DNA from: Rubripirellula sp.
Lineage (GTDB): Bacteria > Planctomycetota > Planctomycetia > Pirellulales > Pirellulaceae
Assembly: GCA_012270065.1 (NCBI GenBank)
Contig: JAAXJB010000050.1
Coordinates: forward strand, 2,316-66,315
Direction: 5' to 3'
Length of the DNA stretch: 64,000 nt
Positions within the stretch are counted from its first letter, which is position 1. Every line of letters begins with the position of its first letter. The position numbers were made by a program, and so were the translations under genes. The notes under the pieces were generated by a model. It worked only from the letters and a program-made list of their open reading frames with translations. It did no database searches and was not told the DNA's origin. Positions 62 to 17,356 of this stretch are shown here, piece after piece.

Positions 62-1384
62 CTAGAACTTGATGCTCTGATCACCATCAGGATCTTCGTT
101 CGTCACGCTCTGGTAAAACCTGCCACTGGCGGTCAGATTTCCGTTTCTGTCGAAGAGAGCCGAAGAAGTGCCATTGGGGTCATCAATTCCGAAAGAGAAC
201 CAGGCATAACCGGCAATCCAATTCTGGCGTTCCATCCAGGGCACAACGTCTTTCATGAATGCGAGTACGTCCTCAGGCTTGTTGGCATTTTCGCGGGCTG
301 TTTTTGCACCCCAATCAGCGATGGCAAACTCTGTGATCAAAAGAGGACGCTCTCCGTAAGCCTGATAGACTTCGATCATGCGCTGTTTGAACGCTGTCGG
401 ACTGGGACTGCCATACCAGTGCACACCGATGTAATCCATCCGGTAACCGCGTCGATCTGCTTCCTTGACGAAGTCGCGCATCCAGGTTCCTCTCACACCC
501 TGCGTGCTGTCATCAACATCACTCAACGGATTTGCACAAGCAGGACTACAGAGTGGAATGTTCAACGCCTCCAACTGAGGCCAATATTTCAAAGCTTCCT
601 TGTAAGGCATGTTCGCCTGCTCTGGTTTATCCGGCTCATTGAATCCCAACAACCAGCGGACGTCACCTGACTTGATTTCCGGAACGACCTGCGCGTCCAG
701 ACTGGCACGCAGATTGTCTGCATTCCAGGCTCCCCAAACCATCGGCATGAAAGCAATGTCAGACGGTTGTTGATCGATGCGTTCCAGCCCCCATGAATAG
801 TTCCAATATGGCTTCAGCACTTTGGTTCTTGGAAGATTCTCTTCCCATGAACCTGCTTTATCTTTCTCACGAAGCGTAAAGCAGACCCCCTTCTTTCCCG
901 GCAATTTCAACGGCTTCTTCAGCGGATCGGCATCCAGATGAATCGCTGCCTTCACTCCAGGGGCAAGTTTTGCAATCTGGTCTCGCGCAGCAGACGCTGG
1001 CTGCCACCACCAACCCTTCTGGTCCCAACACTGCCCAAAGTTGTAGTCTGCAAGCAAGGTGTAATAGGCGGCCAGAGCGCCATCAGTATCACCCTTCTTC
1101 CTCAGAGCTTCTCCCTTGAGGAACGTGACTGTTGCCAATTCATTCAGATTCGAAAACCGTTTTGCCTCGTTTCCCGCTGGAAAGTTACTCAATCCATCAT
1201 TGGACTCCTTTGCACTGGCTCCCCAGGTACGCGCCGCACGATTGGCCAGTTGCTCAACGGCGTTCCAGTCCTTGGCAGCGAGTGCATCCCAGGCTTTGGC
1301 AGTCACTTGCCACGCTTCTTCGGCGGCAACTGGACTCATGAGAAAAGAAATCAGGATGACATGGATGTAGCACAGTCTGATCAT
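62..1384 (-). CDS. Secreted GH128-like (Asl1-type) glycoside hydrolase
   Basis: 440-residue exported protein with a signal peptide (about residues 1-21, cleavage near VAA-EE). Residues 25-140 are helical and TPR-like. The catalytic part (about 195-430) resembles the Asl1/GH128 TIM-barrel family, which cleaves beta-1,3-glucans. The likely acid/base is E250 in GFNEPD and the nucleophile E352 in LLITEFA, with the GVHWYG strand between them; this is the usual clan GH-A layout. It is the last gene on the minus strand beside the EPS locus, so it may trim or release the polymer made there, but it could equally act on external laminarin. The family call is fairly firm; the substrate is inferred. It lies 300 bp downstream of the ATP-grasp gene with a likely terminator between them, so it probably has its own promoter. 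Confidence 0.75.
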   Translation of the reverse strand: MIRLCYIHVILISFLMSPVAAEEAWQVTAKAWDALAAKDWNAVEQLANRAARTWGASAKESNDGLSNFPAGNEAKRFSNLNELATVTFLKGEALRKKGDTDGALAAYYTLLADYNFGQCWDQKGWWWQPASAARDQIAKLAPGVKAAIHLDADPLKKPLKLPGKKGVCFTLREKDKAGSWEENLPRTKVLKPYWNYSWGLERIDQQPSDIAFMPMVWGAWNADNLRASLDAQVVPEIKSGDVRWLLGFNEPDKPEQANMPYKEALKYWPQLEALNIPLCSPACANPLSDVDDSTQGVRGTWMRDFVKEADRRGYRMDYIGVHWYGSPSPTAFKQRMIEVYQAYGERPLLITEFAIADWGAKTARENANKPEDVLAFMKDVVPWMERQNWIAGYAWFSFGIDDPNGTSSALFDRNGNLTASGRFYQSVTNEDPDGDQSIKF

Positions 1385-1684: not shown

Positions 1685-1701
1685 CTATCCCCGGCTTTTT
1701 C
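1658..1701 (-). terminator. Likely terminator at the end of the EPS minus-strand operon
   Basis: The arms GAAAAGCCGG (1658-1667) and CCGGCTTTTTC (1691-1701) are inverted repeats. On the minus strand the hairpin starts in the last codons of the ATP-grasp gene and ends in a TTTTC run. A nested GGGGA/TCCCC pair lies in the loop. The position right at the stop codon of the last gene fits an intrinsic terminator; no folding energy was calculated. Confidence 0.55.
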
Positions 1702-2899
1702 TCAGCTTGCCAACTCTCTGGAACAGACGGACAACTGCAGGAAAAGGATCATTCCACGCAAAACATGGGTAAGTGTGGCGTTTACAAACGCTCTTCATCC
1801 ACGCGTGGAAACTGATTTCGTCAGCCTGCCTCAATTCACGATAAGCTCGAAAATCACGGATCGGATCCCACATGGTCAGATCGTCCTCGAAATGCTCCGT
1901 GTCAGGTAGCGGAAGCCCCGTCTGCTGATTGTAAACAAAGCTGGCCAGGTCAATTCCTGCACGCGCAACGAGCCCATTTGCGGCGGTAAACCGTGCGTTG
2001 CATTCGATCAGTTTGAGCTGATCATCCCGACTGTCCAATTTGAATTCCGCATTTGCCAAGCCAACCAACCCCGCCTCATTGAACAGTCGCAAGGCCAGGT
2101 CCTTGACGTCGGGCACATGGTCAGTGACATGACAGGTCGCCAAACCCATGTTTTTGGGATAGCGCCTCACGATACGCTTGGTAAAGTCAAAAGCAGACGT
2201 CCCGTCCTCATGCATGTACGTGTAGTAGCTGCAAAGCTGCGTGTCAGGACCGGGTATTTTTTCCAGCAGCAAAACATCGATTTCCAGAGAATGCAAAAGT
2301 TCAACAGCATCCTGCGTTTCGTCAAAGTTGTTGGCAGTAACAAACTTGACATTCCTGGAAAACTTCTTCTGGAACTCGTGGGACAGCAGAGGCTTCACCA
2401 GCAGAGGATAAACAAGTTCATCCCGAAGTGCCGTCAGATCCGTATCTTTTTCAACACTCCAGAATTGCGGAGTTGGCACTCCTGCATCCGTGGCAAGCCG
2501 ATACGTTTGGAGCTTGTCCAGCATGGCAAACTGGGCAACTGGATTACAGGCATCCAATCGATACTTCGCAGAGAGTGCCTTGCGGTGCGTGGCAAGGCAC
2601 TCTAGTGCATCATCACTCGCCGCGAGCAAAACACTGCCCTTGAGATAATCAGACTCGTTGCCCACGAGGAATTGAAAGGCAGCCTCCATCAGCGGCACAT
2701 CTTTCGGCAGATCAATCAAAGTTGCTCCACGGCAATGTCTTGCAACCGCGCGTGGCTGGTTCAACAAATGAACTGGAATGCCACGCTTTCGAAAGCTTCT
2801 GATGATGGAAAAGAGATTGTCGTTTCCGTGCAAAAGGATCACGGATGGCTGATGAGCCGAGTATCCGGCGATTTCATCCGGCTGCTTGTCAGTCGACAT
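1685..2899 (-). CDS. ATP-grasp ligase A (carboxylate-amine ligase-like)
   Basis: 404 residues from the ATG at 2899, chosen because GGGAG lies about 8 bases upstream; a longer frame opens to 3076 but would run deep into the preceding gene. The N-terminal part has a nucleotide-fold-like segment (SVILLHGNDN). The ATP-grasp core holds YPLLVKPLLS (ATP-binding Lys), an acidic LLLEKIPG strand and the metal-binding LIECNARF segment. This is the arrangement of ligases that join a carboxylate to an amine through an acyl phosphate. It overlaps the second ATP-grasp gene by 11 bases, so translation is probably coupled. In an EPS locus the likely job is attaching an amino acid or similar group, which is inference; the substrates cannot be read from sequence. 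Confidence 0.7.
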   Translation of the reverse strand: MSTDKQPDEIAGYSAHQPSVILLHGNDNLFSIIRSFRKRGIPVHLLNQPRAVARHCRGATLIDLPKDVPLMEAAFQFLVGNESDYLKGSVLLAASDDALECLATHRKALSAKYRLDACNPVAQFAMLDKLQTYRLATDAGVPTPQFWSVEKDTDLTALRDELVYPLLVKPLLSHEFQKKFSRNVKFVTANNFDETQDAVELLHSLEIDVLLLEKIPGPDTQLCSYYTYMHEDGTSAFDFTKRIVRRYPKNMGLATCHVTDHVPDVKDLALRLFNEAGLVGLANAEFKLDSRDDQLKLIECNARFTAANGLVARAGIDLASFVYNQQTGLPLPDTEHFEDDLTMWDPIRDFRAYRELRQADEISFHAWMKSVCKRHTYPCFAWNDPFPAVVRLFQRVGKLRKSRG

Positions 2900-4010
2900 G
2901 GAACACTCCCGCAGAACGGTGTTCTTGCATGGCACTTTTTCGCTCGTCACCTGATCCCATGTTGCGATCTGCATCTTCGAGGCAGGCCTGCAAAATAGCG
3001 ACTGCCACATTTGGACCACCCTCGCGAAAATGGCAGAAGAAGCCTGGGGTTGTATTGACCTCAAGCACCACACCACCTGCAGTTTTGAGATCTTTGGTTG
3101 GATCTGGCGTCAGTACATCGACACCAGCTAGCCTGACATTGAGGCATTGAGCGGCCTTTCTGGCGATGGCGATTACCTCCGGAGCAATTTCAGGGACCAC
3201 CGGACGATTCTCAGAGGTCGAATTCTGGTTGATGACCGTTTTGACAGCCACGCACTCACCCTCAGGAATAATCGACCGCATCGTCAGCCGTTTTGACTTG
3301 AGCGTTGCAGTCATATCAGCATCGCAGTCGAGAAGCTCCTGTGCGTGTCGAAACCCCTGCTGTTTTCGGGTTTCATTTTCCTTGCGGATGAGCCGGGACA
3401 GACTTGATTGGCCATCACCAATCACCGATGGTGGATGGCGTTGAACCGCATCAATGAGAACGCCATCGAGAAATAGAAGCCGCAAATTACTACCCTCGAT
3501 GTACTCCTCAATCTGCAAATTCCTGCAATATCCAGCCGCCTTCCGACTGGCAATTCGCAGCTGTTTTTGGCTTTGAACTCGAGTCGTGATCCCACATCCC
3601 CCGCCGGTTCCCGAAAGAGGCTTTACCACGCAGCATTCATGCTCACCCAGAAAGCGATACGCCTCAGCCAAGTCAGAAAGCTGAAAGGTGGCAGCACGGG
3701 GCGTAGGGATCTGTTGTCCTGCCAGCGCATCCTGCACGTAACGCTTGTCGCCCACCGAACGCAGGGTAACCGGTCCATCCAAATCGGTGTAATTCCGCCA
3801 GACAACCGTCGCCACACGCCCCCTGGTTATTCGAAGCAGATTGTCGTGCCCCGTGTCGACCAAAGCATCCAATTCCCTGGCAGCATCTGTCCAGCATTTG
3901 AGGTAAAGCTGGTCTTTCTGCTGCGACGACCACCGCGACGCGAAACTGGCACGCTTGGCATAGTAACGGAGCTTTGCAACAGCGAGAGATGAAGTGGCAA
4001 AAGAATGCAT
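2889..4010 (-). CDS. ATP-grasp ligase B (cyanophycin-synthetase/RimK-like)
   Basis: 373 residues from the ATG at 4010. A GTG five codons earlier (4025) is possible, but GAGGG lies 8 bases before the ATG and decides the start. The ATP-grasp fold shows CVVKPLSGTGGGCGI (ATP-binding Lys and glycine loop), QIEEYIEGSNLRLL, a VIGDGQSSLSRLI segment typical of cyanophycin synthetase-type ATP-grasp domains, and the metal-binding VVLEVNTTPGF near the C-terminus. Such domains ligate amino acids or small peptides. It lacks the Mur-ligase half of true cyanophycin synthetase, so it is not that enzyme. It begins 18 bases after RraA and overlaps ligase A. Two different ATP-grasp enzymes in series suggest a two-step condensation. 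Confidence 0.72.
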   Translation of the reverse strand: MHSFATSSLAVAKLRYYAKRASFASRWSSQQKDQLYLKCWTDAARELDALVDTGHDNLLRITRGRVATVVWRNYTDLDGPVTLRSVGDKRYVQDALAGQQIPTPRAATFQLSDLAEAYRFLGEHECCVVKPLSGTGGGCGITTRVQSQKQLRIASRKAAGYCRNLQIEEYIEGSNLRLLFLDGVLIDAVQRHPPSVIGDGQSSLSRLIRKENETRKQQGFRHAQELLDCDADMTATLKSKRLTMRSIIPEGECVAVKTVINQNSTSENRPVVPEIAPEVIAIARKAAQCLNVRLAGVDVLTPDPTKDLKTAGGVVLEVNTTPGFFCHFREGGPNVAVAILQACLEDADRNMGSGDERKSAMQEHRSAGVFHVD

Positions 4011-4028
4011 TGATATTTCCCTCACCGA

Positions 4029-4751
4029 TCAATCGATGGACTCGCAATCCTGTTGGGTCAGCAGTTGGTCAACCCACTCGTTGGAAAACTCGCCGCGGCG
4101 AACTGAATCAAGATAGGATTGCTGCCGCTCTTTTTGTGTTCCGAGCCGATCGATGACATCACTGAGATGATCGCGAGGAACCACAACGATCCCGGATGCA
4201 TCCGCTTTGATGACGTCACCGGGATTCACCACAACACCTCCACAACAGACAGGAAAATTGATTTCTCCCGGACCTCGGTGAAGCGGTCCTACAGCTGTCG
4301 TGCCACGGGCGAATACTGGAAAGTCAAGCTCATCGATTCCGGGCATGTCGCGCACCAGTCCATCTACAATGAACCCCGCGATGCCGCGGTGCTTTGCCTT
4401 GGTGCAGATCAAGTCGCCAAGCACAGCATTCATCGACCTCTCACCATGGGCATCGACCACAACCACATCACCGGGCCGTGCCACATCCAACACTTTGTGA
4501 ACCATCAGATTGTCACCTGGAAATACGCGGACAGTACAAACGCTGCCACAAAGCGTGGTGGCCTGCGCATTCTGGCAGACAATGCTGCTGTCAATCGCAT
4601 AAAGCCGATTCAAGGTGTCTGAGATATCTGGCACTTCAAACGCCCGTAATTCATCCAGAAGGCCTGCTTCCACCGAGGGGTATGACAATTTGACCCGGAA
4701 CCCCGGCCCCGGATTGATCTCCGCGGATTTTGGTCGTGCAGATGCCATCAT
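4029..4751 (-). CDS. RraA-family protein (HMG/oxaloacetate aldolase-like)
   Basis: 240 residues. The RraA/4-hydroxy-4-methyl-2-oxoglutarate aldolase fold is shown by DISDTLNRLYAI near the N-terminus, LARPGDVVVVD-type turns (about 90-100), the G112-D113 pair and the R134-D135 pair in VDGLVRDMPG, which are the divalent-metal and catalytic residues of the aldolase branch. These residues are kept, so an enzyme (aldol cleavage or decarboxylation of a keto acid) is more likely than the RNase E-inhibitor role of E. coli RraA. Its start codon shares one base with the stop of the upstream dehydrogenase (TAATG), so the two are translationally coupled. The start could be either of two adjacent ATGs (4751 or 4748). 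Confidence 0.82.
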   Translation of the reverse strand: MMASARPKSAEINPGPGFRVKLSYPSVEAGLLDELRAFEVPDISDTLNRLYAIDSSIVCQNAQATTLCGSVCTVRVFPGDNLMVHKVLDVARPGDVVVVDAHGERSMNAVLGDLICTKAKHRGIAGFIVDGLVRDMPGIDELDFPVFARGTTAVGPLHRGPGEINFPVCCGGVVVNPGDVIKADASGIVVVPRDHLSDVIDRLGTQKERQQSYLDSVRRGEFSNEWVDQLLTQQDCESID

Positions 4752-5641
4752 TATTCCTTCGTCATGTCGCCAGAATCGTTTGTAAAACCGCTCAGAATCG
4801 TCGCCTTCGTGCCACTTGTCGACTGGTCAGATTGAGCCCACGCTTCCGATGCAATCTGCAATCTGGCAGCCAGAACATTGAACAGCATTTCATCCCGACC
4901 ATGATCATGTGAAAGCTGTGAAATCCCTTTCAATTCATCGACACGTCGGCGAGCATGATGGGGATAAGTGGGCAGCATGCGTTCCAGCGATTCAAAAATC
5001 GCTGGATAGAATGCTTTCTGCTCAGCAAGAAAACTGTCAAGCATGCCCAGTTTAGTCGCGAGATGCGCAACTTCCAGAAACAGAATGCAGAGAGACTTTG
5101 ATTGCCCCCCCATGAGCAGCTTCATATAACTCGCCTGTTCCGTTTCCGTGCCAAGATTTTCAACTCTCATCAAGTTGGTGTACAGTCGTCCAACTTCAGA
5201 AGCATGGTCACCGCTCGTGTAAAGCACTCCCATCGAACCCAAATGCTTCGCGTTTCCATGAACAGTAGCATTCGCAAAGCGGAACCCGGCAGCAACAACA
5301 GTATCCTGGACGGCATGCAGCGTCGGTATGTCAATCGAATTCAGATCAATGAACAAACAGTCCTGATTTGTGGCTCGTTTGAACTTCGCACACGCCTCTG
5401 CTATCTGAATCGCGGCACTTGGAGATACCACCGAAAGGATAATGCCACACCTGTCCAGCAGGTTTTCCAGACAATCCACATTGGTGATTGGCAGATTTTC
5501 CGCGCGTGCCTGCGTCGCAGAGCTTCTTCCCGCAGTGCAGGTGAGCAACGTGAGTTTCGGGTTCTGCTGCAGCAAAACAGCCAGTCCCGACCCAAGGTCT
5601 CCAAGATGCAGAATTCCAATATGATCTGATTTCGAATTCAT
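4751..5641 (-). CDS. NAD(P)-dependent dehydrogenase, 6PGDH-like with DUF1932
   Basis: 296 residues. An N-terminal Rossmann fold starts at IGILHLGDLGSGLA (G-x-G-type dinucleotide loop), followed by the beta-hydroxyacid dehydrogenase pattern; LSVVSPSAAIQIAEAC is the helix after strand 4. The C-terminal half (about 175-270), with YMKLLMGGQSKSL, matches the DUF1932 helical domain found in phosphogluconate/3-hydroxyisobutyrate-type dehydrogenases, where the conserved Lys of the MKLL segment is catalytic. It overlaps the GT4 gene by 4 bases (ATGA) and RraA by 1. DUF1932 dehydrogenases and RraA aldolases often sit together in catabolic operons; here they are inside an EPS operon, which is unusual. 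Confidence 0.8.
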   Translation of the reverse strand: MNSKSDHIGILHLGDLGSGLAVLLQQNPKLTLLTCTAGRSSATQARAENLPITNVDCLENLLDRCGIILSVVSPSAAIQIAEACAKFKRATNQDCLFIDLNSIDIPTLHAVQDTVVAAGFRFANATVHGNAKHLGSMGVLYTSGDHASEVGRLYTNLMRVENLGTETEQASYMKLLMGGQSKSLCILFLEVAHLATKLGMLDSFLAEQKAFYPAIFESLERMLPTYPHHARRRVDELKGISQLSHDHGRDEMLFNVLAARLQIASEAWAQSDQSTSGTKATILSGFTNDSGDMTKE

Positions 5642-6900
5642 TTCTTTGTGGCGTGGTGGCTCAGAATAAGAGTTGCGAGTTTTGACACATTACCTTTCAG
5701 GGAAAAATCCCGTTTGATTTTTTCCAGTCCCTGCGATTGGATTTTACGGCGAAGATCAGCACTTGATTGCAGAATCCCGATCGCTTCTGCGATCTGGGAC
5801 GCGTTCCCCGGATCGGTGAGCATCCCGGTTTCACCATCCTGAATGAGTTCCGGTATTCCAGACAGCCTGCTGGAAATGCAGGGAGTACCCGCGGCCATGG
5901 CTTCCATCAAAACGACGGGGATCCCTTCACGTCGTCCATCCTTACTCGGTGCACTCGGAGCGACAAGAATATCGGCCGCCTGCATTTCAGTGTGTACGAT
6001 ATCGCTTGTGACGCTGCCAAGAAACCTGATGTGCCTGCTCAAACCGAGGACCTCGGCTTTGGCCTCCAAGGATTCCCGATCAGGACCGTCTCCCAGAAAA
6101 GCACATTCAAATCCGATTCCCTTTGAAACGAGCAAGGCACAAGCATCAAGTAGATGGTGCTGCCCCTTCACTTCATGCAGCGTACCAACACAAATGAGCC
6201 GCACTGGTCGATCGCCAATCTGTTCACCATGCTGACTCTGCTTCGACCAAAACTGCTGGGGATCAATACCGCAATGAATGACATGGACGCTGGTCTCCAA
6301 CGCTGAACCAGACACTTCAACAATCATGTTCTTGTTGTACTGCGAGATTGCAACAACGAAGGCAGCTTCACGGGCTTTCGTTCGCAGCATGTGTTGATCA
6401 CGGTGCAGATCCGAACCATGGGCAACAAAACTGTAGGGTATGCCGGTCATACGATGGATAACACAGGCAACATAAGCCGGATGGCTGGCAAAATGAGCAT
6501 GAACATGGGCAATACCGGCCTTTTTCATTTCCATGCCAAGGTAAATCGCCTTCGGAAAAAAAGCGATAGCACCGACCAAAAATCGCCGACTGCCAAGATT
6601 TTCGTAAATCGCTTGCAGCAATGTCGACATGAACTTCAAGGGATTGAAAACAAATGATGATAGGCAGGCGACAAAAATCGGCCAGGAAATGAACGGAGTG
6701 AAGTGAGCACGCTCAACGTAGTCCCGTGCTTTGGCCTGAACCACGGCAGCATTTTCCCGCTGCAACGGATACACCTCGATCGTGTATCCCTGACGTTCCA
6801 TTTCCAGCATTTCATTGAGCACAAATGTCTCCGTGACTTTCGGAAACCGTGACATCATGTAAGCGATGCGCAACGACTTTGAATCAGAAGCTTTCATCAT
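5638..6900 (-). CDS. Glycosyltransferase family 4 (GT-B)
   Basis: 420 residues, full length for GT4. An N-terminal acceptor domain carries RIAYMMSRFPKVTETFVLNE, a pattern shared with colanic-acid-type transferases such as WcaL. The donor domain has LICVGTLHEVKGQHHLLDA and the EX7E motif around EGIPVVLMEAMAAGTP (retaining GT4 sugar-nucleotide site). It probably adds one sugar to the lipid-linked repeat unit at the inner face of the membrane. It overlaps the flippase (ATGA at 6897-6900) and the dehydrogenase. Sugar specificity cannot be read. Confidence 0.85.
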   Translation of the reverse strand: MMKASDSKSLRIAYMMSRFPKVTETFVLNEMLEMERQGYTIEVYPLQRENAAVVQAKARDYVERAHFTPFISWPIFVACLSSFVFNPLKFMSTLLQAIYENLGSRRFLVGAIAFFPKAIYLGMEMKKAGIAHVHAHFASHPAYVACVIHRMTGIPYSFVAHGSDLHRDQHMLRTKAREAAFVVAISQYNKNMIVEVSGSALETSVHVIHCGIDPQQFWSKQSQHGEQIGDRPVRLICVGTLHEVKGQHHLLDACALLVSKGIGFECAFLGDGPDRESLEAKAEVLGLSRHIRFLGSVTSDIVHTEMQAADILVAPSAPSKDGRREGIPVVLMEAMAAGTPCISSRLSGIPELIQDGETGMLTDPGNASQIAEAIGILQSSADLRRKIQSQGLEKIKRDFSLKGNVSKLATLILSHHATKK

Positions 6901-8474
6901 GTGTCATTGTCCTCCATGGAAGGCACGTCGTCTTCTTCCTTGGTCTCAACTGCAATGAATCGTGAAATGAATGGCAACCTGGCGAGCTCAGGTACAGTTC
7001 CTGGAACATCAAGTTGTTTGCCGAATAGCAGGAACATTAGTAGCGATGCGAGTGCTGAAACTGCCAAACAAGAGATGATACCTCCGTTGAGATATCGCAC
7101 CGCCATCAGTCCTGTGAAAGCCAATGTCATCGCAACCGAAAAATGAAATACCATTGAACGTGTCAAAGTACTCACCTGCATCGTCTTGATGGAACATATC
7201 TGGTGAATCCCAGCCTGAAGAAGAAACGTCAAGCAGACAGCGATCGCCCCGCCCTTGGCGCCGAACTCGTAGGCCAAAAGAGAAACGGTAGCGAGCGAGA
7301 GGATGTTGATCGTCATGTCTGCCCAGATCAGGGTTTTCAGTTGACCGGCGACCCGCATCAATCGTGTGCTCAGGCCAAAGGTTGCCTGAATGAAAAATCC
7401 ACAGGCGAGCCACATCAAAATCGTATTTGAGGACTTGTATTGTGCCCCAAAGAGGAGTTGGGGAAGTTCATCGGCACAAATTATCGAAGTTGCAAAGACA
7501 GGAAAGGTCAGTAGCAGAATCCAGGTTGCTGTCGTGTTGTACAGGGAATCAAGTGCCTGCTTCTTTTGTGTGTCCGCAAGTTTCGCTGCACGCGGCAGAA
7601 ACAATACCGAAAAGGCCATCAAAACGAATTCATTCAACCTGGCAACGGGAACGACCGCCTGGAAAGAAGCGACCTCTGCTTCGTCAAACGAAAACCCGAG
7701 AATGATTGGAATGACCGCACTTCGCAATAAGAATGCAAGATCGCCGAGAACGACAGTCCCACCAAAGCCAAGAATTTCTCGCGTTGGGATCGCCATCCTT
7801 GTTGTCATCGCCAATCGAAGTGAATCGTTCTCAGCAAGAATACGACGAAACACACCTAAACAAATCACGACCCCTGCAAGCACGGCAACAAGTTGTCCAA
7901 CCGCAAAGGCGATCAATCCTCCACCTGACAAAACCACCACCGTGGCGGCGGAGAGCTTGAAGGCAGGTGTCATCAGATATCTGCGATAAAACACAATCGA
8001 GGGTTTCGTAACAGCAGCAAAAAAGGACAAAAGAAAGGCATCCGTCGCGTTGCAGAACGCAAAGAACGAGGCCAGCAACAATAAAGTGCTGGTGGCTGGG
8101 TTGTCCTGATTGAATGTTATCCCTTGGTACCAGACAGCAAAAAAACAAATGCAGAAAAAACAGCTGACCACAGAAATCGTTGCCAGCATGACGCGGAACG
8201 CTGACCAGAATTGTGTGTACTGTTTGCGGTGCAAATAGACCGCCAGGTACCTGGACACGGCTTTGTCAGTTCCAAAGACACTGATTACAGAAATGACTCC
8301 AGAAATCGACAGACAGAAGGCATACAACCCGTAATCAGCTTTGGACAGGTAACGCACTGTGAGGATTTGCACCAGAAAATTGATGCATAGTGCAACAACA
8401 CGGCCGATCGCAAATAGGATAGAGCCCCGCAGGTGAGATCGATCAATGTTATTCACAGTGTCTTCAGGTCTCAC
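6897..8474 (-). CDS. Wzx-like polysaccharide flippase (MOP superfamily)
   Basis: 525 residues with about 12-14 hydrophobic segments from residue 20 to 505, as in MATE/Wzx-type flippases that move undecaprenyl-diphosphate-linked repeat units across the inner membrane. The first segment, FAIGRVVALCINFLVQIL, followed by VRYLSKADYGLYAF, is the typical Wzx start (membrane helix, then the (S/A)xxxYG motif). The start is not clear: GTG at 8474 has no good Shine-Dalgarno, and a second GTG at 8456 is possible. The C-terminus is a short cytoplasmic acidic tail. First gene of the sub-operon running to the ATP-grasp genes. Confidence 0.82.
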   Translation of the reverse strand: MRPEDTVNNIDRSHLRGSILFAIGRVVALCINFLVQILTVRYLSKADYGLYAFCLSISGVISVISVFGTDKAVSRYLAVYLHRKQYTQFWSAFRVMLATISVVSCFFCICFFAVWYQGITFNQDNPATSTLLLLASFFAFCNATDAFLLSFFAAVTKPSIVFYRRYLMTPAFKLSAATVVVLSGGGLIAFAVGQLVAVLAGVVICLGVFRRILAENDSLRLAMTTRMAIPTREILGFGGTVVLGDLAFLLRSAVIPIILGFSFDEAEVASFQAVVPVARLNEFVLMAFSVLFLPRAAKLADTQKKQALDSLYNTTATWILLLTFPVFATSIICADELPQLLFGAQYKSSNTILMWLACGFFIQATFGLSTRLMRVAGQLKTLIWADMTINILSLATVSLLAYEFGAKGGAIAVCLTFLLQAGIHQICSIKTMQVSTLTRSMVFHFSVAMTLAFTGLMAVRYLNGGIISCLAVSALASLLMFLLFGKQLDVPGTVPELARLPFISRFIAVETKEEDDVPSMEDNDT

Positions 8475-9868: not shown

Positions 9869-10897
9869 TCACCTCAAAAGCCACTGCATTGGCCGTGACG
9901 CAGGATTGAGCTGAAAGCGAATCACGTTATCTGGCGTTTCCCGCCCCACATTGATGCGGCATAACTGCATCGGATCACAGTGGGTAATCCGGTTGATGCC
10001 GCGGTTCGTCGTGAACCCCAGTTCACACCCCGCTTTTCTTGACTGTTCAACCACCTGCCTTGAATACTGACCTGATGGGTAAGCGATTGCAGGCAAACTG
10101 CACCCAGTTTTCTGTTTGAGCATTTGCATTGACAATTCAACCTCGTTGCGAACCTCACTTGGTGAAATGCGGTCCAGCAGTGGGTGGGTATGCGTGTGCG
10201 GCACCAGAGTGACATGTTGGTCTGACACTTCATTCAATTGATCCCAGCTCATTACAGCAGGAACCAAGGGCTTCGCTTTTGATTGCATGCAGATGGAATC
10301 AACAACGTCGTTGAGCTCTGTCCATGGCAACTGCTTCAGCGACTGTTTGAGTTCACGCAGCGTTTGCCCCCTGCTGATTTCATTTGAAACGTCAAAGCTC
10401 CCCAGTTTCGTCTCGAGATGGGATCCCGCATGATCGCAAAGGAGCGTTTCATACAGGCGATCCCACCAGAATCTTCGGTCAGGCTGATCGGGATAGGCAG
10501 TTGGAACAAAAAGCGAAGCAGGAAGACCACGGTCACGCAGAATGTCAAAAGCATGAAGATAGAAATCTTCGTACGCATCATCGAAAGTGATGAGAACAGC
10601 ACGCGCCGGCAAACTTGTTTCTCCGCGCATTGAGTCAAGAACAGCCTCCAGAGAAACAACGCTGAAATACTGCATTAGCCAATCGAGCTGGCGAGCAAAT
10701 TGATCGGGGGTCGCGCTGATGAGTGAGGGATCGAGGTCAATTCGTCGGTCAAGCCAGTCGATGCGGTGGTACGTGAGCACACGCAGATACTTTCTCCCTC
10801 GATCTGCAATTTCCACAGCCCGTGCAAAGTTATGAAATGCAAACGAATCTCCGACGGAACGGAGCAATCGCTTTTTAAACGGGGGCGATGGGTTCAT
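9869..10897 (-). CDS. Polysaccharide deacetylase (NodB-homology, CE4)
   Basis: 342 residues. The NodB domain begins at VLITFDDAYEDFYLHAF (motif 1, TFDD: catalytic base and metal Asp). Motif 2 is HTHTHPLL (metal-binding His residues). Later AYPSGQYSRQVVEQ corresponds to motif 3 (usually RxPYG/RYPxG). No signal peptide is visible, so it may act at the cytoplasmic side or be exported by an unrecognised route; the N-terminal FKKRLLRSVGDSFAF is basic. Deacetylation of N-acetylated sugars in the EPS is the likely role, giving free amines that an ATP-grasp ligase could acylate (inference). Confidence 0.82.
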   Translation of the reverse strand: MNPSPPFKKRLLRSVGDSFAFHNFARAVEIADRGRKYLRVLTYHRIDWLDRRIDLDPSLISATPDQFARQLDWLMQYFSVVSLEAVLDSMRGETSLPARAVLITFDDAYEDFYLHAFDILRDRGLPASLFVPTAYPDQPDRRFWWDRLYETLLCDHAGSHLETKLGSFDVSNEISRGQTLRELKQSLKQLPWTELNDVVDSICMQSKAKPLVPAVMSWDQLNEVSDQHVTLVPHTHTHPLLDRISPSEVRNEVELSMQMLKQKTGCSLPAIAYPSGQYSRQVVEQSRKAGCELGFTTNRGINRITHCDPMQLCRINVGRETPDNVIRFQLNPASRPMQWLLR

Positions 10898-10986: not shown

Positions 10987-11892
10987 TCAACAATCCGCCG
11001 TCTGTGCATCCGAGGACACGATATGCGCCGACAAGTGCTGAGGCAGACTCCGCGAGTTGCAATCAGCTCGTTCAATCAAGCCCGACAGAGTGCATTCCTC
11101 ATCTGGGAATCCCGCCACCCCAAAGCGGATTTTCAGTCCCAACTCCTGCGATAATTGCTCGGAGAACTCCTTCATGTACTGAGCAATCCTGTCTGTAGTC
11201 GTTTCCGGGCAAAGCAGAACAAACTCACCATTCCTGAGAACAACCAGGTCGCCGGGGCCAGAGGTGTCCAAGAGTCGCTCAGCAATCCTGGACTCCAGAA
11301 AGCGTTTGGTAACCTCAAGACGCACCTTTTTTGTCAATTTTTCAATTTGCGAGTGACTCATCTCGCCAGAAAATGCAAGCGTCGCCAGCGCCAAGGGACG
11401 CTGGTGCTGTCTGGCTCTTTGAACTTCCTGATACATCCGTTTTTCACCAGTTTCCAACGACAACATGCGTTGACATCCACGGATTGCAGTCAGGTCACTG
11501 GCCGCGGACATGAAATCGTCAATTTGCCGCCCCAATTCCCAGGCCAACCAGCTCGTTAGACCGAGCATCACAATTTCCATGACAGCGAGCGGAAGAAATT
11601 CACCCCAGAACGAACAGTTGAGCCCCCACTTCAGAAAGCCGTAAACGACAAGAGTCAGCGAGAACACAGTCAACAGACCAGCGCGGTGAATTTTCCGTGT
11701 CATCACGATCGCAGCGGCGACAAGACACAGATACGGATAAACGAAAGATGCGATGTTGATAGGTTCGTGCAACCTCTCAATGTTGCAGATAAAACATAAC
11801 CAGATCAGCATGATTGCTGTTGTCAAGCGGAGCCGCAGCATACTGCTATCCATGTTTGGATAGCGACCGTCCCGCATGTTGAGAAACTTCAT
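10987..11892 (-). CDS. Membrane protein with degenerate GGDEF domain
   Basis: 301 residues from the ATG at 11892, which overlaps the stop of the sugar transferase (TGATG) with a GAGGGG ribosome site ahead of it. Four to five hydrophobic segments occupy about residues 15-120, then a cytoplasmic domain of about 175 residues shaped like a GGDEF domain: it has the GDLVVLRNGEFVLLCPE segment where active diguanylate cyclases have RxGGDEF. The signature is reduced to NGEF with a residue deleted, and no RxxD inhibitory site precedes it. It is therefore probably not a cyclase, and could be a signalling or scaffold protein. Its tight coupling to the priming transferase suggests a role in switching EPS synthesis. 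Confidence 0.65.
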   Translation of the reverse strand: MKFLNMRDGRYPNMDSSMLRLRLTTAIMLIWLCFICNIERLHEPINIASFVYPYLCLVAAAIVMTRKIHRAGLLTVFSLTLVVYGFLKWGLNCSFWGEFLPLAVMEIVMLGLTSWLAWELGRQIDDFMSAASDLTAIRGCQRMLSLETGEKRMYQEVQRARQHQRPLALATLAFSGEMSHSQIEKLTKKVRLEVTKRFLESRIAERLLDTSGPGDLVVLRNGEFVLLCPETTTDRIAQYMKEFSEQLSQELGLKIRFGVAGFPDEECTLSGLIERADCNSRSLPQHLSAHIVSSDAQTADC

Positions 11893-12554
11893 CAATACGC
11901 CCCTCTTCGATTGAGAACCGAAACGAAGGTCATCAACAGAATTTTGCAGTCAAGCATCAATGACTTGTTGCGTATGTACTCACGATCAAGTAGCACTCGA
12001 TCATCAAAGCCGACGTCACTTCTTCCACTGATCTGCCAGAGACCGGTAATACCTGGGAGAACTTCAAGCCGTTCGGTATGCCACAACTGATAGGTACTCA
12101 CATCAAACGAAGTTGGTCGCGGCCCGACAAGACTCATATCACCCTTCAGAACATTGATGATCTGGGGTAACTCATCCAGACTTGTTTTGCGTAAAAAGGA
12201 ACCAACTTTCGTGATGCGTGGATCATCGGCCATCTTGAAGTCCGGCCACGACAACTCATTCTGCTGCGTCAAACCCTGCTTGAGTTCTTCTGCATTCTCA
12301 ACCATCGTTCTCAGTTTCAACATCGGAAATCTGCGACCAAAGCGACCGGTACGATGCTGAATGAAAAAGACGGGCCCAGCAGTTTCCAGACGAATCGCAA
12401 CCATGCAGGTCACCAACACAGGCACAAACAACGGCAAAGCCAGACAGCAAAGCAGCAGATCCATCACACGTTTCGCCGCGTTGTATCCTTGATGCGAAAT
12501 CACCCGCGCTGAGTGCGGTGATTCCCAATGTATCGTCTCGATGTTGTTATCCAC
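11892..12554 (-). CDS. Priming sugar-phosphate transferase (bacterial sugar transferase)
   Basis: 220 residues, the short monotopic form (PglC/PssY/WcaJ C-terminal type) rather than the long five-helix form. One re-entrant membrane segment (about 30-55) follows a basic AAKRVMDLLL stretch. The catalytic DE pair is in RKTSLDELPQIINVLKGDMS and the phosphate/substrate segment is VGPRP. It transfers a sugar phosphate from a nucleotide sugar to undecaprenyl phosphate, starting the repeat unit. The start is GTG at 12554 with no strong ribosome site. First gene of the minus-strand EPS operon, facing the divergent chain-length gene. Confidence 0.88.
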   Translation of the reverse strand: MDNNIETIHWESPHSARVISHQGYNAAKRVMDLLLCCLALPLFVPVLVTCMVAIRLETAGPVFFIQHRTGRFGRRFPMLKLRTMVENAEELKQGLTQQNELSWPDFKMADDPRITKVGSFLRKTSLDELPQIINVLKGDMSLVGPRPTSFDVSTYQLWHTERLEVLPGITGLWQISGRSDVGFDDRVLLDREYIRNKSLMLDCKILLMTFVSVLNRRGAY

Positions 12555-13235
12555 GTGTTCGTCGCGCTATCCGGCAAGTATTTATCAGGGAGGGTCCAAA
12601 GTTGGGAGTTCAACGAGTCTTGGGGCCCAGCAGGGCAGATTGCGCTCCAAATGGAAAAAATCTGGCGAGGTTACAGAAAACGATCTCGATTTCATGCAGC
12701 ATTTGTGTTTTTGGTGAATACGAGCACTCGCCATGTCGCCCCTAGGCAACAACACAGGTCGAATAAAATCAACGACGTTTCAAATAAACCACACGGTTGC
12801 CTGGTGAAACCACAGCTGATCGACAAACGGCATCACGGACGTTGGTAGTGGTCAAAACCAACCCTCAGCGGCGTTACCCCCGTAAAGAGTTCTGGATTTC
12901 GACGTTCCGGTTATTCCGACTGGGCAAACTATAACCTTTAGGGGGGGGACTGATACCTCTAAAAGCGAATTTCCAATTGTTTTTCGCTGAGGCCGAGTGA
13001 TTTGCGCACGGCTTCTGCATCTCCCGAATGTCAGTCTGCTCCAATGGTAAGAATGCAAACGGGACGGAATGCGTCGTTTTGTCCCACCTCGGTGGACCTT
13101 GCTGCATCACCCCCAAGTGCTAGCTTCAAGCAAATTTCCTGGCGTCTTCGTTTTCAACCTTCCAAGTCACCACAGAAACCTCCAACACGCAGACGGTTGA
13201 CCGATCTATCAAGGTTCAACTCTCGAAAGGTTCAT
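12555..13235. other. Divergent intergenic region of the EPS locus, with hairpins
   Basis: 681 bases between the divergent sugar transferase and chain-length genes; no recognisable gene. Visible structure: an inverted repeat GTTGGT (12841-12846) / ACCAAC (12857-12862); a run of eight Gs near 12941-12948; GGGAC (13061-13065) / GTCCC (13081-13085) with nested GACG/CGTC; and CCACC TC GGTGG (13084-13095). The last elements would sit in the 5' leader of the plus-strand transcript. The region very probably holds both promoters, but no clear -35/-10 pairs were found. Confidence 0.45.
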
Positions 13236-14603
13236 ATGGAACTCAATCTCACTGCATTGAAACGCCATCTGCCACTCGTTTTTTTCTGCACACTTGCGGG
13301 TGTTGCTGCAAGTTACGGCTACCTGAAATACACGCCTGCATCCTATTACATGCATGCGCGGGTGCTGATTGAGCCAAGCAGCCTGAAACCGGAGGTATCC
13401 GATCTGGGACGCGTTGATCCCGAGTTTCTGCCGACACAGGCGGAGACAATACGTAGCCCAATCACAGTCGGGGCAGCTCTCAATTCGATCAGAGTGCTAC
13501 CCACCCCGGGACAGGACATCGAAACATTTGATCCTGTTCGTCATGTCCTCAGTTCCATGACCGTCACGCCGATTCTTCGCGCCAATGTCGTGACAATCGG
13601 TTACCGAAGCCCGGATCCTGAAACGGGCGAACAAGTGATCAGTGGAGTGATCGATGCCTATCGAGAGCATGTCTCCTCCATCGACACCGCTGACTCGATC
13701 ACAAACCTTGAGATTGCACAGTCAGAGGAGGAGACCCTGCGTGATGATCTGGCGAGTGCAGAACAGCTTTACGAGGAACTGTTGAATCAAAGTCCATTGA
13801 TTGCAAAGGGCCAGAACGCGATCGAGATCGCGATCACGGATTTGAATCGTTATCAGATCCGTCTGGCAGAACTTGAGAAGACGAGGGCGATGACCGAAGC
13901 AAAAATCCGCGAAATCGAGACTGGAGCAACATTCAATGTGCCAAGGTTGAGCGATTCAGAATCCGACCGGATCACTTCTCTGAAAGTGCCTGTAACGGAC
14001 AATGAACAGGTCGCCAGTCGGCTCTTGCCGATTTTTGACACCGAAGAGGCACTTGCATTGCAACAGGCGCAGGAAAACCATCGCCTCGCCAAACTTCAAT
14101 ACGAACAACTCAATGCAGTTTACGGTGAAAAGCATCCAGTTTTGATTTCAGCGGGAGAGCAATTGGCAACCTTGGAGTTCAATGTCTCCCAGCGGCTTGC
14201 TGATGCCGGCGAACGTCTGCGCAGCAACCTCAGATTGACAGTGGAGATGGAGAGTCAGGTACGGTCTGTATTTGCAGAGAAACAGCAAGAGGTCAGGGTG
14301 GCGCAGAAGTTGCTTTCACGAGAAGAAACGCTGGTTCAGGACATCGAACGACTACAGCGATTACATGCTTCTGCCGAGGAGAAACTCACGTCAATGAAAA
14401 CCCGCAAGACAGCTGTTTCAGAAGGGAAATCATCAATTGATGTACGCGTACTTGACGGCCCTCTGGTTCTTAATGACATGACCTGGCCAAATGCCAAAAA
14501 GCTGTTTCCGCTTGCGGCAGGCGTCGGATTGGCAGTTGGTCTGTCACTGGCCTTGTTGCGTGAGTGGTTGTCACAACAATCTGCCACCGTTTCGGACAGC
14601 TAG
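13236..14603 (+). CDS. Wzz/GumC-like polysaccharide chain-length protein without kinase
   Basis: 455 residues from the ATG at 13236 (CGAAAGG ribosome site 6 bases upstream; the frame is open further up but has no ribosome site). It has the PCP architecture: N-terminal membrane helix (about 10-28), the YMHARVLIEP extracytoplasmic beta region, a long coiled coil (about 160-430), then a second membrane helix (about 410-440) with a short cytoplasmic tail. The bacterial tyrosine-kinase domain that follows in GumC/Wzc-type proteins is absent here and no separate Wzd-type kinase is seen in the window. Sets EPS chain length with the Wzy polymerase; first gene of the plus-strand EPS operon. Confidence 0.82.
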   Translation: MELNLTALKRHLPLVFFCTLAGVAASYGYLKYTPASYYMHARVLIEPSSLKPEVSDLGRVDPEFLPTQAETIRSPITVGAALNSIRVLPTPGQDIETFDPVRHVLSSMTVTPILRANVVTIGYRSPDPETGEQVISGVIDAYREHVSSIDTADSITNLEIAQSEEETLRDDLASAEQLYEELLNQSPLIAKGQNAIEIAITDLNRYQIRLAELEKTRAMTEAKIREIETGATFNVPRLSDSESDRITSLKVPVTDNEQVASRLLPIFDTEEALALQQAQENHRLAKLQYEQLNAVYGEKHPVLISAGEQLATLEFNVSQRLADAGERLRSNLRLTVEMESQVRSVFAEKQQEVRVAQKLLSREETLVQDIERLQRLHASAEEKLTSMKTRKTAVSEGKSSIDVRVLDGPLVLNDMTWPNAKKLFPLAAGVGLAVGLSLALLREWLSQQSATVSDS

Positions 14604-14612
14604 GATTTCTTC

Positions 14613-15839
14613 ATGGTTGAACTAATTGCGGGGTTGATGCTGGTCGTCATCATTTACACCTATGTGTTGTTCCCCGTGATCTGCATTGCACGTGGATGGC
14701 TGTTTCCGCGACCGTGGAAACAGAACCAGATCAATCCCACCGTGTCAATTGTCATCATTTGCCATAATGAAGCGGACGTCATCGAGACAAAGCTTGATAG
14801 TATCCTCGCGCTTCACTATCCCGGGAACCTGATTCAGACCATCGTCGGATCAGATGGCTCGGATGATGGTACCCATGACGTCGTGGCTCGCTACCACGGC
14901 TTGCGAATGACGAACCTGGCTTTCGACCGACGGGGCAAGATACCCGCACTCAACGATGCGGTAAGCAAGGCAACGGGAGACATCCTTGTTTTCACCGACG
15001 CAAATAGTATTTTCCACGAAGATGCCCTCCAGAATCTGGTGCGGCATTTCAGCGACGAGCGTGTGGGTGGTGTTGCAGGCAACCAGGTGTACTGCGATCA
15101 CACTGCAAGTGGTGCTGCGGCTTCTGGTGAAAAGTCATTCTGGAATTATGACCGCGTCCTGAAAGACGCACAAAGCAAATCGGGAAACGCAATCTCCGCA
15201 ACGGGAGCAATCTATGCGATTCGCCGGCATCTCTTCCAGCAAGTGCCTCCGGGAGTCACCGACGATTTTACCGTTTCGACAAGAGTGGTTTTGCAGGGAT
15301 TCCGGTTGGTGTTCGATGGAAAAGCGATTGCCACTGAACCAGTTGCAGGAAAAGCGAAATCCGAATACCGCCGCAAGGTTCGCGTGATGACAAGGGGATT
15401 CCGCTCACTCTGGACCGTGAGAGGGCTTCTGAACCCTTTTCGATTCGGATTTTATTCTCTCCAGCTGTTTTCCCACAAACTGCTCCGGCGTCTGGTAGCT
15501 TTCCCGATCCTTGCTTTGTTGCTGATGACCCCCTGGTTATGGCAGGAAGGCGGCTGGATGACCTGCCTGGCGGTAGCTCAAACGGTTTTCTACACACTCG
15601 GTGTCTTGAGTCTGCTGTTTCGTAATTGGCATGGATTATCAAAGCTGGGCTCAATTCCACTATTCTTCAGTCTTGCGAATCTCGCAGCGATGCAGGCTGC
15701 ATTCAATTTCATGTCAGGTCGGACCATTGATCGATGGGAATCTCCGCGTGACGAGCAACCAACCGGAGACAAAGAGTTCCAAGTGCTTTCCGAACAGCCT
15801 GTTCATGCCCAAACACTTCAGGATGTGAGTGCAAAATGA
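14613..15839 (+). CDS. Membrane glycosyltransferase family 2
   Basis: 408 residues. N-terminal membrane helix (about 3-25), then a GT-A domain: VSIVIICHNEAD, GSDGSDDGT (UDP-binding DGSxD-type), VFTDANSIF (DxD-like) and VTDDFTVSTRVV (acidic ED-type site). Three to four C-terminal membrane helices lie between about 275 and 365. The SEYRRKVRVMTRG segment sits where processive synthases have QxxRW, so it is probably not a processive synthase. It adds a sugar on the inner face of the membrane. AGGA-type ribosome site 9 bases upstream; overlaps the next gene by 4 bases (ATGA). Confidence 0.82.
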   Translation: MVELIAGLMLVVIIYTYVLFPVICIARGWLFPRPWKQNQINPTVSIVIICHNEADVIETKLDSILALHYPGNLIQTIVGSDGSDDGTHDVVARYHGLRMTNLAFDRRGKIPALNDAVSKATGDILVFTDANSIFHEDALQNLVRHFSDERVGGVAGNQVYCDHTASGAAASGEKSFWNYDRVLKDAQSKSGNAISATGAIYAIRRHLFQQVPPGVTDDFTVSTRVVLQGFRLVFDGKAIATEPVAGKAKSEYRRKVRVMTRGFRSLWTVRGLLNPFRFGFYSLQLFSHKLLRRLVAFPILALLLMTPWLWQEGGWMTCLAVAQTVFYTLGVLSLLFRNWHGLSKLGSIPLFFSLANLAAMQAAFNFMSGRTIDRWESPRDEQPTGDKEFQVLSEQPVHAQTLQDVSAK

Positions 15840-17356
15840 ACAACGCATCTGGAAGCCAATCCACCGGCAAGATGCGTTCTGCCATGTGGCCACTGACTGG
15901 CCTACTGACCACATTGAGCCTGGTTTTGCTGGTTTGTACACAGACAAACCTGATTCTGGTTGCCGTGATGCTCTGTCTCCTTGCAGCAGCAGCGGGAGCG
16001 ATGTTGAAGTGGCCGGACTTGACCACGGTGATCGGACTGGGACTGATTTACAGCAATATTTCGGTGGTGTTGGTACGTTTCCACGGCGCTCCCTCGGCTC
16101 TTCCCATTGCAACACTTGGGATGCTCGCATGGCCCTTTGTCTATCGAATCTTCATAAAACAAGAAAGGCTCCTGTTGCCTCCGGCAACTCCATTTCTCTT
16201 TGCCTACATTTTCGTCCAGTTCATCAGTGCTGTGCTCAGCACAAATCCACGTCATTCATTACCGGGCGTGCTCTCATTCCTTCTCGAAGGTGTCGTCATC
16301 TATGTGCTGGTGTCCAACCTCATCCGTACACGACGGATTGCGGTTGCCTGCTTCTGGGCATTTGCATTATGCGCCATTGTGATGGGGGGAGTTCCTCTGC
16401 TGAAGCAGGCCACTGGCAATTACGCATCTGACTTTGGTGGATTCGCTCAGGCAGGAGGAGCGTTGGGAAAAACCGATGCAAATCTGCTGGGCGAAATTCC
16501 TCAACAACGTGCAACAGGAACAATAGGAGAACAGAACCGATACGGGCAGTTCATGATCATTCTCGTTCCCATCTCACTTGCCCTGGTACCCATCTCATCT
16601 GATGTAAAACACAAGGGGCTCGCCATTGCGGCAACTTTTTTTGGACTCGCTGGTTTCGCGCTCGCATTTTCGCGCGGTGCAGCGGTCGGATTAATTCTCG
16701 CTGTGGTAATCGCAATGGCGTTGAAACTGCTGCCGCGAAAACAGATCAAATGGCTCGCCTTTGGTGGTTTGATCGTTCTGCTGCTTCTTCCGCAGTACCT
16801 GAACCGCCTGGCATCATTGACAGAACTCTCAACCCTCGCCAGCCCAATGGGCGCGAGTGGCCAAACAGACGGAGCAATCAGGGGACGGCTGACTGAAATG
16901 GCCGGCGCTGTCCTGGCGTTTCGAGACCACCCGCTGCTTGGCGTTGGTCCTGACATGTTCTCCCAATACTCGCAAAGATACGGTCAAGTGATCGGGCTGA
17001 GATCACTCGGCAACGGCCGGGAAGCACATTCGTTGCCATTGGATATCCTTGCAGAAACGGGGATCACCGGTTTTCTTGTCTTTTCCGGATTGGTGATCAC
17101 AGTTCTGTCAGCTCTTTTGCGAAGCAGACGTCGCTCGATCGAATGCAAAGATAGTGTGAGTGCGGCGTTGACCGAAGGCATTGCCGTTGCCCTCATTCTT
17201 TACCTGACAACTGGCCTCTTTCTGCACATGTCGTACATCCGGTATTTCTGGTTGCTACTCGGCTTGGCAGACGGCATCAGCATGCTCGCAGGCCAGAATG
17301 ACCGTGGTGGCGACTATCTCCCTCGATTCAGGAAAAGTGAACCGCAAATCAACTAG
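15836..17356 (+). CDS. Wzy/O-antigen-ligase-family polymerase
   Basis: 506 residues with about 12 membrane segments. The long periplasmic loop about 340-400 carries the Wzy/WaaL-type pattern: RGRLTEMAGAVLAFRDHPLLGVGPDMFSQYS region with the HPLLGVGP motif and an essential Arg. It joins repeat units after flipping, as a polymerase. The frame overlaps the preceding GT by ATGA. The 3' end converges on the Wza-like gene: the two stop codons share the palindrome CTAG at 17353-17356, so the transcripts overlap end to end. Confidence 0.84.
   Translation: MNNASGSQSTGKMRSAMWPLTGLLTTLSLVLLVCTQTNLILVAVMLCLLAAAAGAMLKWPDLTTVIGLGLIYSNISVVLVRFHGAPSALPIATLGMLAWPFVYRIFIKQERLLLPPATPFLFAYIFVQFISAVLSTNPRHSLPGVLSFLLEGVVIYVLVSNLIRTRRIAVACFWAFALCAIVMGGVPLLKQATGNYASDFGGFAQAGGALGKTDANLLGEIPQQRATGTIGEQNRYGQFMIILVPISLALVPISSDVKHKGLAIAATFFGLAGFALAFSRGAAVGLILAVVIAMALKLLPRKQIKWLAFGGLIVLLLLPQYLNRLASLTELSTLASPMGASGQTDGAIRGRLTEMAGAVLAFRDHPLLGVGPDMFSQYSQRYGQVIGLRSLGNGREAHSLPLDILAETGITGFLVFSGLVITVLSALLRSRRRSIECKDSVSAALTEGIAVALILYLTTGLFLHMSYIRYFWLLLGLADGISMLAGQNDRGGDYLPRFRKSEPQIN

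Follow-up and report, generated by a model that had tools for sequence, protein, structure and literature searches.

A conserved module of two ATP-grasp ligases, an RraA-like aldolase and a dehydrogenase in bacterial polysaccharide loci

Background

Four adjoining genes in a 64,000-nucleotide stretch of DNA from the planctomycete Rubripirellula sp. (GenBank assembly GCA_012270065.1, contig JAAXJB010000050.1, positions 2,316 to 66,315 of the forward strand; hereafter the window) are a functional unit with conserved linkage. They encode two ATP-grasp ligases (designated A and B), an RraA-like aldolase (C) and a DUF1932 dehydrogenase (D), and lie in an exopolysaccharide (EPS) locus. Comparison with relatives supports the assignment of this module to polysaccharide loci rather than catabolic loci. 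We propose, with a probability of about 0.55, that a small carboxylic acid is synthesized by the module and amide-linked in the cytoplasm to a polysaccharide precursor. No description of this gene set was found in the open-access literature searched.

Results

The four genes are conserved as a unit

All four genes are uninterrupted open reading frames (ORFs) on the minus strand of the window. Their coordinates give an 11-base overlap between A and B, an 18-base gap between B and C and a 1-base overlap between C and D. Upstream of D lie a glycosyltransferase family 4 (GT4) gene and then a Wzx gene, with 4-base overlaps at D/GT4 and GT4/Wzx. The positions, strand and spacings listed in a first-pass annotation, made from the sequence of the window alone, agree with these ORFs. 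A phage origin of the four proteins was considered and rejected, as 0 PHROG families were matched.

Co-occurrence was analyzed in 149 genomes from the family to which the window belongs, with a single protein as the query for B and profiles for the other genes. Strong matches for each of the four genes were found in an identical set of nine genomes and in none besides, and a stand-alone B of approximately 370 residues was present in 9 of the 149. The E-value thresholds, set after the gaps had been seen, separate the strong matches from the next ones at 5.3e-175 and 2.8e-70 for A, 3.3e-69 and 2.4e-30 for B, 7.8e-122 and 8.1e-38 for C, and 4.2e-100 and 9.1e-62 for D. The gene order was D-C-B-A in all nine genomes. 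At 1e-60, B was matched in 6 of 392 genomes sampled from the phylum, and two of the six belong to other families.

A wider scan, which used one genome per species and was seeded on A (loci without A thus being outside the sample), yielded 43 loci. By the taxon labels of the records, these belong to seven phyla: Planctomycetota, Acidobacteriota, Actinomycetota (mainly Pseudonocardia), Pseudomonadota (Kiloniellaceae, Afifella and Thiocapsa), Ignavibacteriota, Chloroflexota and Gemmatimonadota. Two near-identical contigs of metagenome-assembled genomes, labelled Chloroflexi (L080; loci and genomes carry our own L and G numbers) and Gemmatimonadetes (L081), have near-identical A genes, so that one is probably mis-binned and six of the seven labelled phyla are safe.

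The window and four further loci brought the total to 48. Of these, 38 contain B, 40 contain C, 29 contain D (omitting two D matches below 90 bits, in L060 and L075) and 35 contain all of A, B and C. Twenty of the 48 have the order DCBA, and one more has it with D doubled; the remainder were arranged as CBAD, dcBA, CBA and others. Four of the ten genomes with no B at the locus have a strong B elsewhere. Similarly, three of the seven searched genomes without C at the locus have a strong C elsewhere, and in one further genome C is on another contig. Outlying pieces of the module were also seen: B adjoining an oxygenase-like gene (L096), D adjoining C (L097), C within a Wza-Wzc-Wzx locus (L099 and L100), and a phosphosugar transferase-C-B-oxygenase set accompanied by PIG-L and YdjC deacetylases (L101). 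The reading of A to D as a coupled module, put forward in the first-pass annotation, is borne out by the shared nine genomes and the recurrent order.

The module resides in polysaccharide loci

The occurrence of polysaccharide genes was assessed with profiles seeded from the GT4, Wzx, deacetylase, phosphosugar transferase, Wzc, glycosyltransferase family 2 (GT2), Wzy and Wza proteins of the window. These were run against the long module loci (at least 10 kb; n = 40) and 40 control windows of 20 kb. At least one polysaccharide gene was found in 31 of 40 long loci versus 2 of 40 controls (Fisher p 7e-12), a difference tempered by the origin of the controls in just two planctomycete genomes and the seeding of the profiles with proteins of the window. 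When the window itself was left out the count was 30 of 39. Two or more polysaccharide families were present in 25 of 40 long loci and 1 of 40 controls, and outside Planctomycetota 14 of 21 long loci had polysaccharide genes. In one genome (G048), which is among the nine cases without polysaccharide genes, the module stands alone on its contig, with no EPS genes within 20 kb, and a separate EPS locus pairs a distant paralogue of A with a deacetylase.

The D-C-B-A order thus recurs in relatives mostly beside polysaccharide genes, and catabolic surroundings in most relatives, which would speak against the EPS-locus membership first proposed, were not seen. Catabolic hitchhiking as the principal explanation was rejected because polysaccharide genes occur in most long loci and A to D are all-or-none within the family.

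Deacetylases are recurrent neighbors, in line with the helper role first ascribed to the deacetylase near the module. Of the 40 long loci, 17 had a NodB-type enzyme, versus none of the 40 controls, and PIG-L and YdjC deacetylases were found in two further loci. By a plain hydropathy count, a hydrophobic N-terminal stretch was absent in all 14 NodB-type ORFs examined, four of which have over-long starts and hence unsure N-termini. Distant A paralogues also lie beside NodB-type deacetylases in EPS loci of G048 (L091:8450-9838) and G066 (L090:7722-9050), with B and C not at that place; these paralogues suggest that A-like ligases and deacetylases form a wider pairing. In G046, which belongs to the genus of the window, two A paralogues are arranged in tandem (L089:7941-10620).

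The deacetylases bear on the nature of the acceptor. Amides of uronic acids with amino acids occur in bacterial polysaccharides, and in L072 a UDP-glucose dehydrogenase gene adjoins the module, as might be expected if the acceptor were a uronic acid or an amino acid and the ligases built an amino-acid amide of a sugar acid. This was the one locus with UDP-glucose dehydrogenase identified, without a systematic search, and the recurrent N-deacetylases argue for freed amines instead. We therefore regard a uronic or amino acid acceptor as improbable, and prefer attachment of the module's acid to a sugar amine.

C retains the pyruvate site of class II aldolases

C is an RraA-like protein (8.5e-48; PF03737, 162.9 bits) that aligns with the HMG/CHA aldolase structure 3noj (E 4.2e-32). 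In the Pseudomonas putida F1 HMG/CHA aldolase, Arg-123, Asp-124, Asn-71, His-75, Arg-40 and Gly-101 bind or activate pyruvate, as described in PMC5065237. The equivalents in C, paired by hand from the pairwise alignment, are R134, D135, N81, H85, R49 and G112 in that order, and each is invariant in 40 of 40 module homologues; the active site had been called intact from the window, and this holds across the module. In the same 40 homologues, D113 is at least 90% conserved; it pairs with Asp-102, which we take to be a metal-site residue of the HMG/CHA aldolase.

C thus combines the RraA-like domain, the Arg-Asp motif and the pyruvate-site residues of class II pyruvate aldolases. Retention of the residues that bind and activate pyruvate makes pyruvate-enolate chemistry probable, and we consider it very likely, from the sequence, that C works via a pyruvate enolate, either as an aldolase or as an oxaloacetate decarboxylase. 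C differs from HMG/CHA aldolase in several respects. It is located in polysaccharide loci rather than in aromatic catabolism, residues on the acceptor side differ (Lys-147 is replaced by His-158), and it scores below every NCBIfam cut-off, including those of equivalogs. No NCBIfam cut-off was reached by the tested members of the A, B, D or membrane-protein (see below) groups either.

D and its replacements point to a hydroxy-acid step

D matched DUF1932 (PF09130) at 4.6e-09 and 36.5 bits, over the cut-off of 25, whereas its PF03446 score of 19.7 bits is just under the cut-off of 21. It has the NAD-binding domain plus DUF1932 that mark a beta-hydroxyacid dehydrogenase, and K174 is at least 90% conserved (27 aligned sequences). 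The matching structures 1i36 (E 7e-14) and 3qsg (E 1.4e-11) are DUF1932 beta-hydroxyacid dehydrogenases, entered without an assigned substrate; D differs from them in belonging to an ATP-grasp/aldolase module. Profiles of named families matched weakly, the nearest being prephenate/arogenate dehydrogenase for the window copy (0.015) and 2-hydroxy-3-oxopropionate reductase for the Thiocapsa copy (2.4e-05). In L054, tandem copies of D (2-2088) head a DDCBA module.

Among the 48 loci, D was present in 29 and an Ldh_2 enzyme in 6, and the two never occurred together (chance under independence, 0.002). The six Ldh_2 loci amount to about three independent cases of replacement, since four of them belong to a single clade. 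In addition, Iso_dh enzymes adjoin the module or lie near it in four genomes, one of which also has Ldh_2. D, Ldh_2 and Iso_dh are three unrelated dehydrogenase families whose known members act on 2- or 3-hydroxy acids, and together they point to a single hydroxy-acid/oxo-acid step in the module. The earlier suggestion that the dehydrogenase and the RraA protein make or interconvert a keto or hydroxy acid fits this pattern of replacement.

These two enzymes might instead be catabolic, with C cleaving a pyruvate aldol and D oxidizing a hydroxy acid to recycle an acid derived from EPS, and with A and B serving a separate purpose. Characterised HMG/CHA aldolases are catabolic, according to PMC5065237; DUF1932-type and Ldh_2 enzymes are able to oxidise, and L097 has a D-C pair on a contig away from A. 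However, C was present in 40 of 48 loci found through A alone, and in L096 and L101 B is paired with an oxygenase-like gene and not with catabolic genes. Such recycling appears rather unlikely to us, slightly less so than a uronic acid acceptor, and synthesis of an acid for the ligases remains the preferred role of C and D.

Two unlike ATP-grasp ligases

A is a divergent ATP-grasp protein, matching ATPgrasp_Ter at 3.9e-05 (under its cut-off) and CPSase_L_D2 at 21.2 bits (over its cut-off of 19.8). Its AlphaFold2 model (mean pLDDT 92.5) gave VIA-align Z-scores of 23-27 to ATP-grasp enzymes, including PurK (27), the L-amino-acid ligase 3vot (25.3), biotin carboxylase (25) and PylC (23), and its Foldseek matches include 3vot, PylC and YwfE. 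We predict with high confidence that A folds as an ATP-grasp of the carboxylate-amine type, with no single enzyme standing out and 3vot tied with PurK. The structural comparison proposed in the first-pass annotation upheld the ATP-grasp fold of A; no D-aspartate ligase entry was among the 50 rows listed from Foldseek and VIA-align.

B (373 residues) matched the cyanophycin synthetase profile over positions 177-467 of 862 (8.6e-46), and its residues 88-340 align with the CphA1 structure 7lg5 (E 9.7e-30); it also resembles glutathione synthetase in the profile and PDB searches. Since only this part of the profile is covered, B lacks both the Mur half and the N-terminal part of CphA1. B also differs from CphA1 in its setting, next to another ATP-grasp protein and to an aldolase and a dehydrogenase. 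A true cyanophycin synthetase was rejected on the basis of these missing domains and a score of 156.4 bits against a curated cut-off of 850. The two ligases are thus unlike each other, as had been noted, and the cyanophycin-type one is without its N-terminal part in addition to the Mur half.

Both proteins show the features of the ATP-grasp superfamily: the fold, the conserved lysines and the metal-site residues. In A, K129, K169, E299 and N301 are invariant in a 46-row alignment; in B, K89, K130 and N319 are invariant and E317 is at least 90% conserved in a 32-row alignment. We assume that these are the ATP-grasp lysines and the acidic and asparagine residues of the metal site.

The resemblance of A and B to peptide-forming ATP-grasps (3vot, PylC and YwfE for A, cyanophycin synthetase for B) would also suit synthesis of a soluble metabolite with an amide link, either resembling a dipeptide or attached to a sugar as in mycothiol and bacillithiol, by genes that merely adjoin those for EPS. 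In mycothiol synthesis a deacetylase likewise acts before amide ligation, and some loci, as well as the module of G048, are without EPS genes. On the other hand, a soluble metabolite needs no Wzx, Wzy, Wza or phosphosugar transferase, and polysaccharide genes accompany the module in 31 of 40 long loci of varied lineages. We consider a soluble product unlikely, if the least so of the alternatives, and favor a polysaccharide precursor as the acceptor.

A membrane protein and an oxygenase-like protein associated with the module

The four-gene set recognized in the first-pass annotation is a real unit, but it is incomplete, as a fifth gene elsewhere in the window (Table 1) was missed. The gene codes for a membrane protein of approximately 490 residues and is located directly downstream of A in six of the nine module-containing genomes of the family; in eight of the nine it shares the contig of the module. 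Among the 149 genomes searched, strong matches were confined to those with the module (1.8e-187, then 1.9e-89). Its profile matched in 11 of the 48 loci; in the one from Pseudonocardia bannensis the match adjoins D.

The model of this protein (mean pLDDT 73.1) is predicted to have the transmembrane fold of vitamin K gamma-carboxylase (GGCX). In VIA-align the 15 best rows were all GGCX, with Z-scores of 13.6-17.9, far above the next row (5.1). Foldseek was more modest, with a best E-value to GGCX of 5.9e-03 and TM-scores of 0.25-0.35. Pfam HTTM (PF05090; cut-off 27.7), the family of GGCX, detected a relative in L033 (30.8 bits) and scored 16.7 bits in L027, with no match for the window protein. 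The fifth protein also differs from GGCX in having no sequence match in PDB (searched twice) and no known protein substrate. All nine aligned sequences have K155, within an AKxN motif, and this lysine may pair with GGCX Lys218.

A second family, of approximately 340 residues, occurred in 10 of the 48 loci (e.g., L076:12391-13398, L079:12345-13322 and L055:4240-5313). Its sequences share an invariant HKDR stretch, followed further on by WH.R, and by eye they resemble 2-oxoglutarate/iron oxygenases. No Pfam match was found for this family, and comparison with PDB gave weak rows, the best being a PqqD-type chain matched in the C-terminal part (E 0.29).

Conceivably, in a widespread pathway, two pyruvate-type units might yield a hydroxy-diacid with both carboxylates amide-linked by the two different ATP-grasps, so that amino sugars or amino acids within a glycan chain or on two such chains are bridged. 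The planctomycete membrane protein would then add a carboxyl group to give a calcium-binding (Gla-like) EPS. This elaboration seems to us very improbable.

Other genes of the window and of module loci

Features of the window are listed in Table 1. The GGDEF-like protein, which is situated between the phosphosugar transferase and the deacetylase, has relatives at the same place in L029, L030, L032 and L091, and perhaps provides c-di-GMP (cyclic di-GMP)-related control of the polysaccharide locus. A Glyco_hydro_cc protein (window 62-1384) is encoded downstream of A on the same strand and is not among the genes recurring in module clusters. In L065, two neighbors of the module were identified by eye, one as hydrogenase-maturation-like and the other, an ORF, as transposase-like.

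Table 1. Module genes and polysaccharide-related features of the window
Feature	Position	Strand	Basis
A, stand-alone ATP-grasp ligase, own family	1685-2899	-	Profile search, AlphaFold2, Foldseek, VIA-align, 46-row alignment
B, ATP-grasp ligase resembling the corresponding half of cyanophycin synthetase	2889-4010	-	Profiles, PDB match, 32-row alignment
C, RraA/HMG-aldolase-like, putative class II pyruvate aldolase	4029-4751	-	Profiles, 3noj alignment, 40-row alignment
D, DUF1932 dehydrogenase, beta-hydroxyacid dehydrogenase type	4751-5641	-	Pfam, PDB matches, 27-row alignment
GT4 glycosyltransferase	5638-6900	-	Profile match; overlaps D by 4 bases
Wzx-type flippase	6897-8474	-	Profile match
NodB/PgaB-type polysaccharide deacetylase, TFDD and HTHTH motifs, N-terminus not hydrophobic	9869-10897	-	Profiles, hydropathy count
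Weak GGDEF-like protein	10987-11895	-	Profile below cut-off
Initiating phosphosugar transferase (Bac_transf)	11892-12554	-	Profile match
Wzz/Wzc-like chain-length protein	13002-14603	+	Profile below cut-off
GT2 glycosyltransferase	14613-15839	+	Profile match
Wzy-type O-antigen ligase/polymerase	15836-17356	+	Profile match
Wza-type export protein	17353-18576	-	Profile match
Fifth gene, multi-spanning membrane protein, predicted vitamin K gamma-carboxylase (HTTM) fold	19020-20504	+	Predicted structure, comparison of relatives

Discussion

From these data we infer a pathway along the following lines. C would form or cleave a 4-hydroxy-2-oxo acid through a pyruvate enolate, and D, or Ldh_2 or Iso_dh elsewhere, would act on the 2-oxo/2-hydroxy position to give a small hydroxy acid, which the putative Fe/2-oxoglutarate-type oxygenase may modify in some lineages. 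B and A would activate carboxyl groups and couple them to amines, possibly with an amino acid in between. The acceptor is likely to be an amino sugar of the lipid-linked unit, exposed by an N-deacetylase that the locus encodes and acylated prior to flipping by Wzx. The vitamin K carboxylase-like membrane protein may act later in some planctomycetes.

Deacetylation followed by amidation of a sugar amine is known from the NodB-NodA and MshB-MshC pairs. The likeness to these systems is that a deacetylase frees a sugar amine and acylation comes next; the difference is that here acylation would be carried out by ATP-grasp ligases supplied by a dedicated acid-making pair.

Several observations weigh against this proposal or against the unity of the module. 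B is missing from all five other genomes of the window's genus, which indicates that the module was gained or lost as a whole. Other genomes have distant paralogues of A (E 1e-54 to 1e-70) without B or C, G054 has a D homologue without the module, and G031 and G095 have weaker homologues of the membrane protein without it (1.9e-89 and 4.0e-57). Five of the ten genomes without B at the locus (L070, L071, L080, L081 and L083) have no B anywhere, and that of L065 has a weak one; B is therefore not always needed. The pairwise identities of the four proteins are correlated (Spearman 0.40-0.71, and 0.60-0.71 among A, B and C; Mantel p 0.001), which reflects joint inheritance, but common descent would by itself produce this, and several of the 48 loci are close relatives and not independent. 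Nine of the 40 long loci contained no polysaccharide gene matched by the profiles (L046, L052, L055, L065, L070, L071, L077, L081 and L083); in L065, from Thiocapsa marina, the order is D-C-A without a clear B, and no EPS gene lies within 10 kb. Finally, RraA aldolases favour cleavage, which leaves the direction of the reaction of C unsure.

Non-sugar substituents set the charge, metal binding and cross-linking of EPS, and outside a few pathogens their biosynthesis is mostly unknown. If the membrane protein works like vitamin K carboxylase, the module would provide the first gene context that suggests a substrate for bacterial members of that family. As the module occurs in many phyla, and cultured strains of Pseudonocardia, Afifella and Thiocapsa are among its carriers, the enzymology of one representative could account for EPS chemistry across many environmental bacteria.

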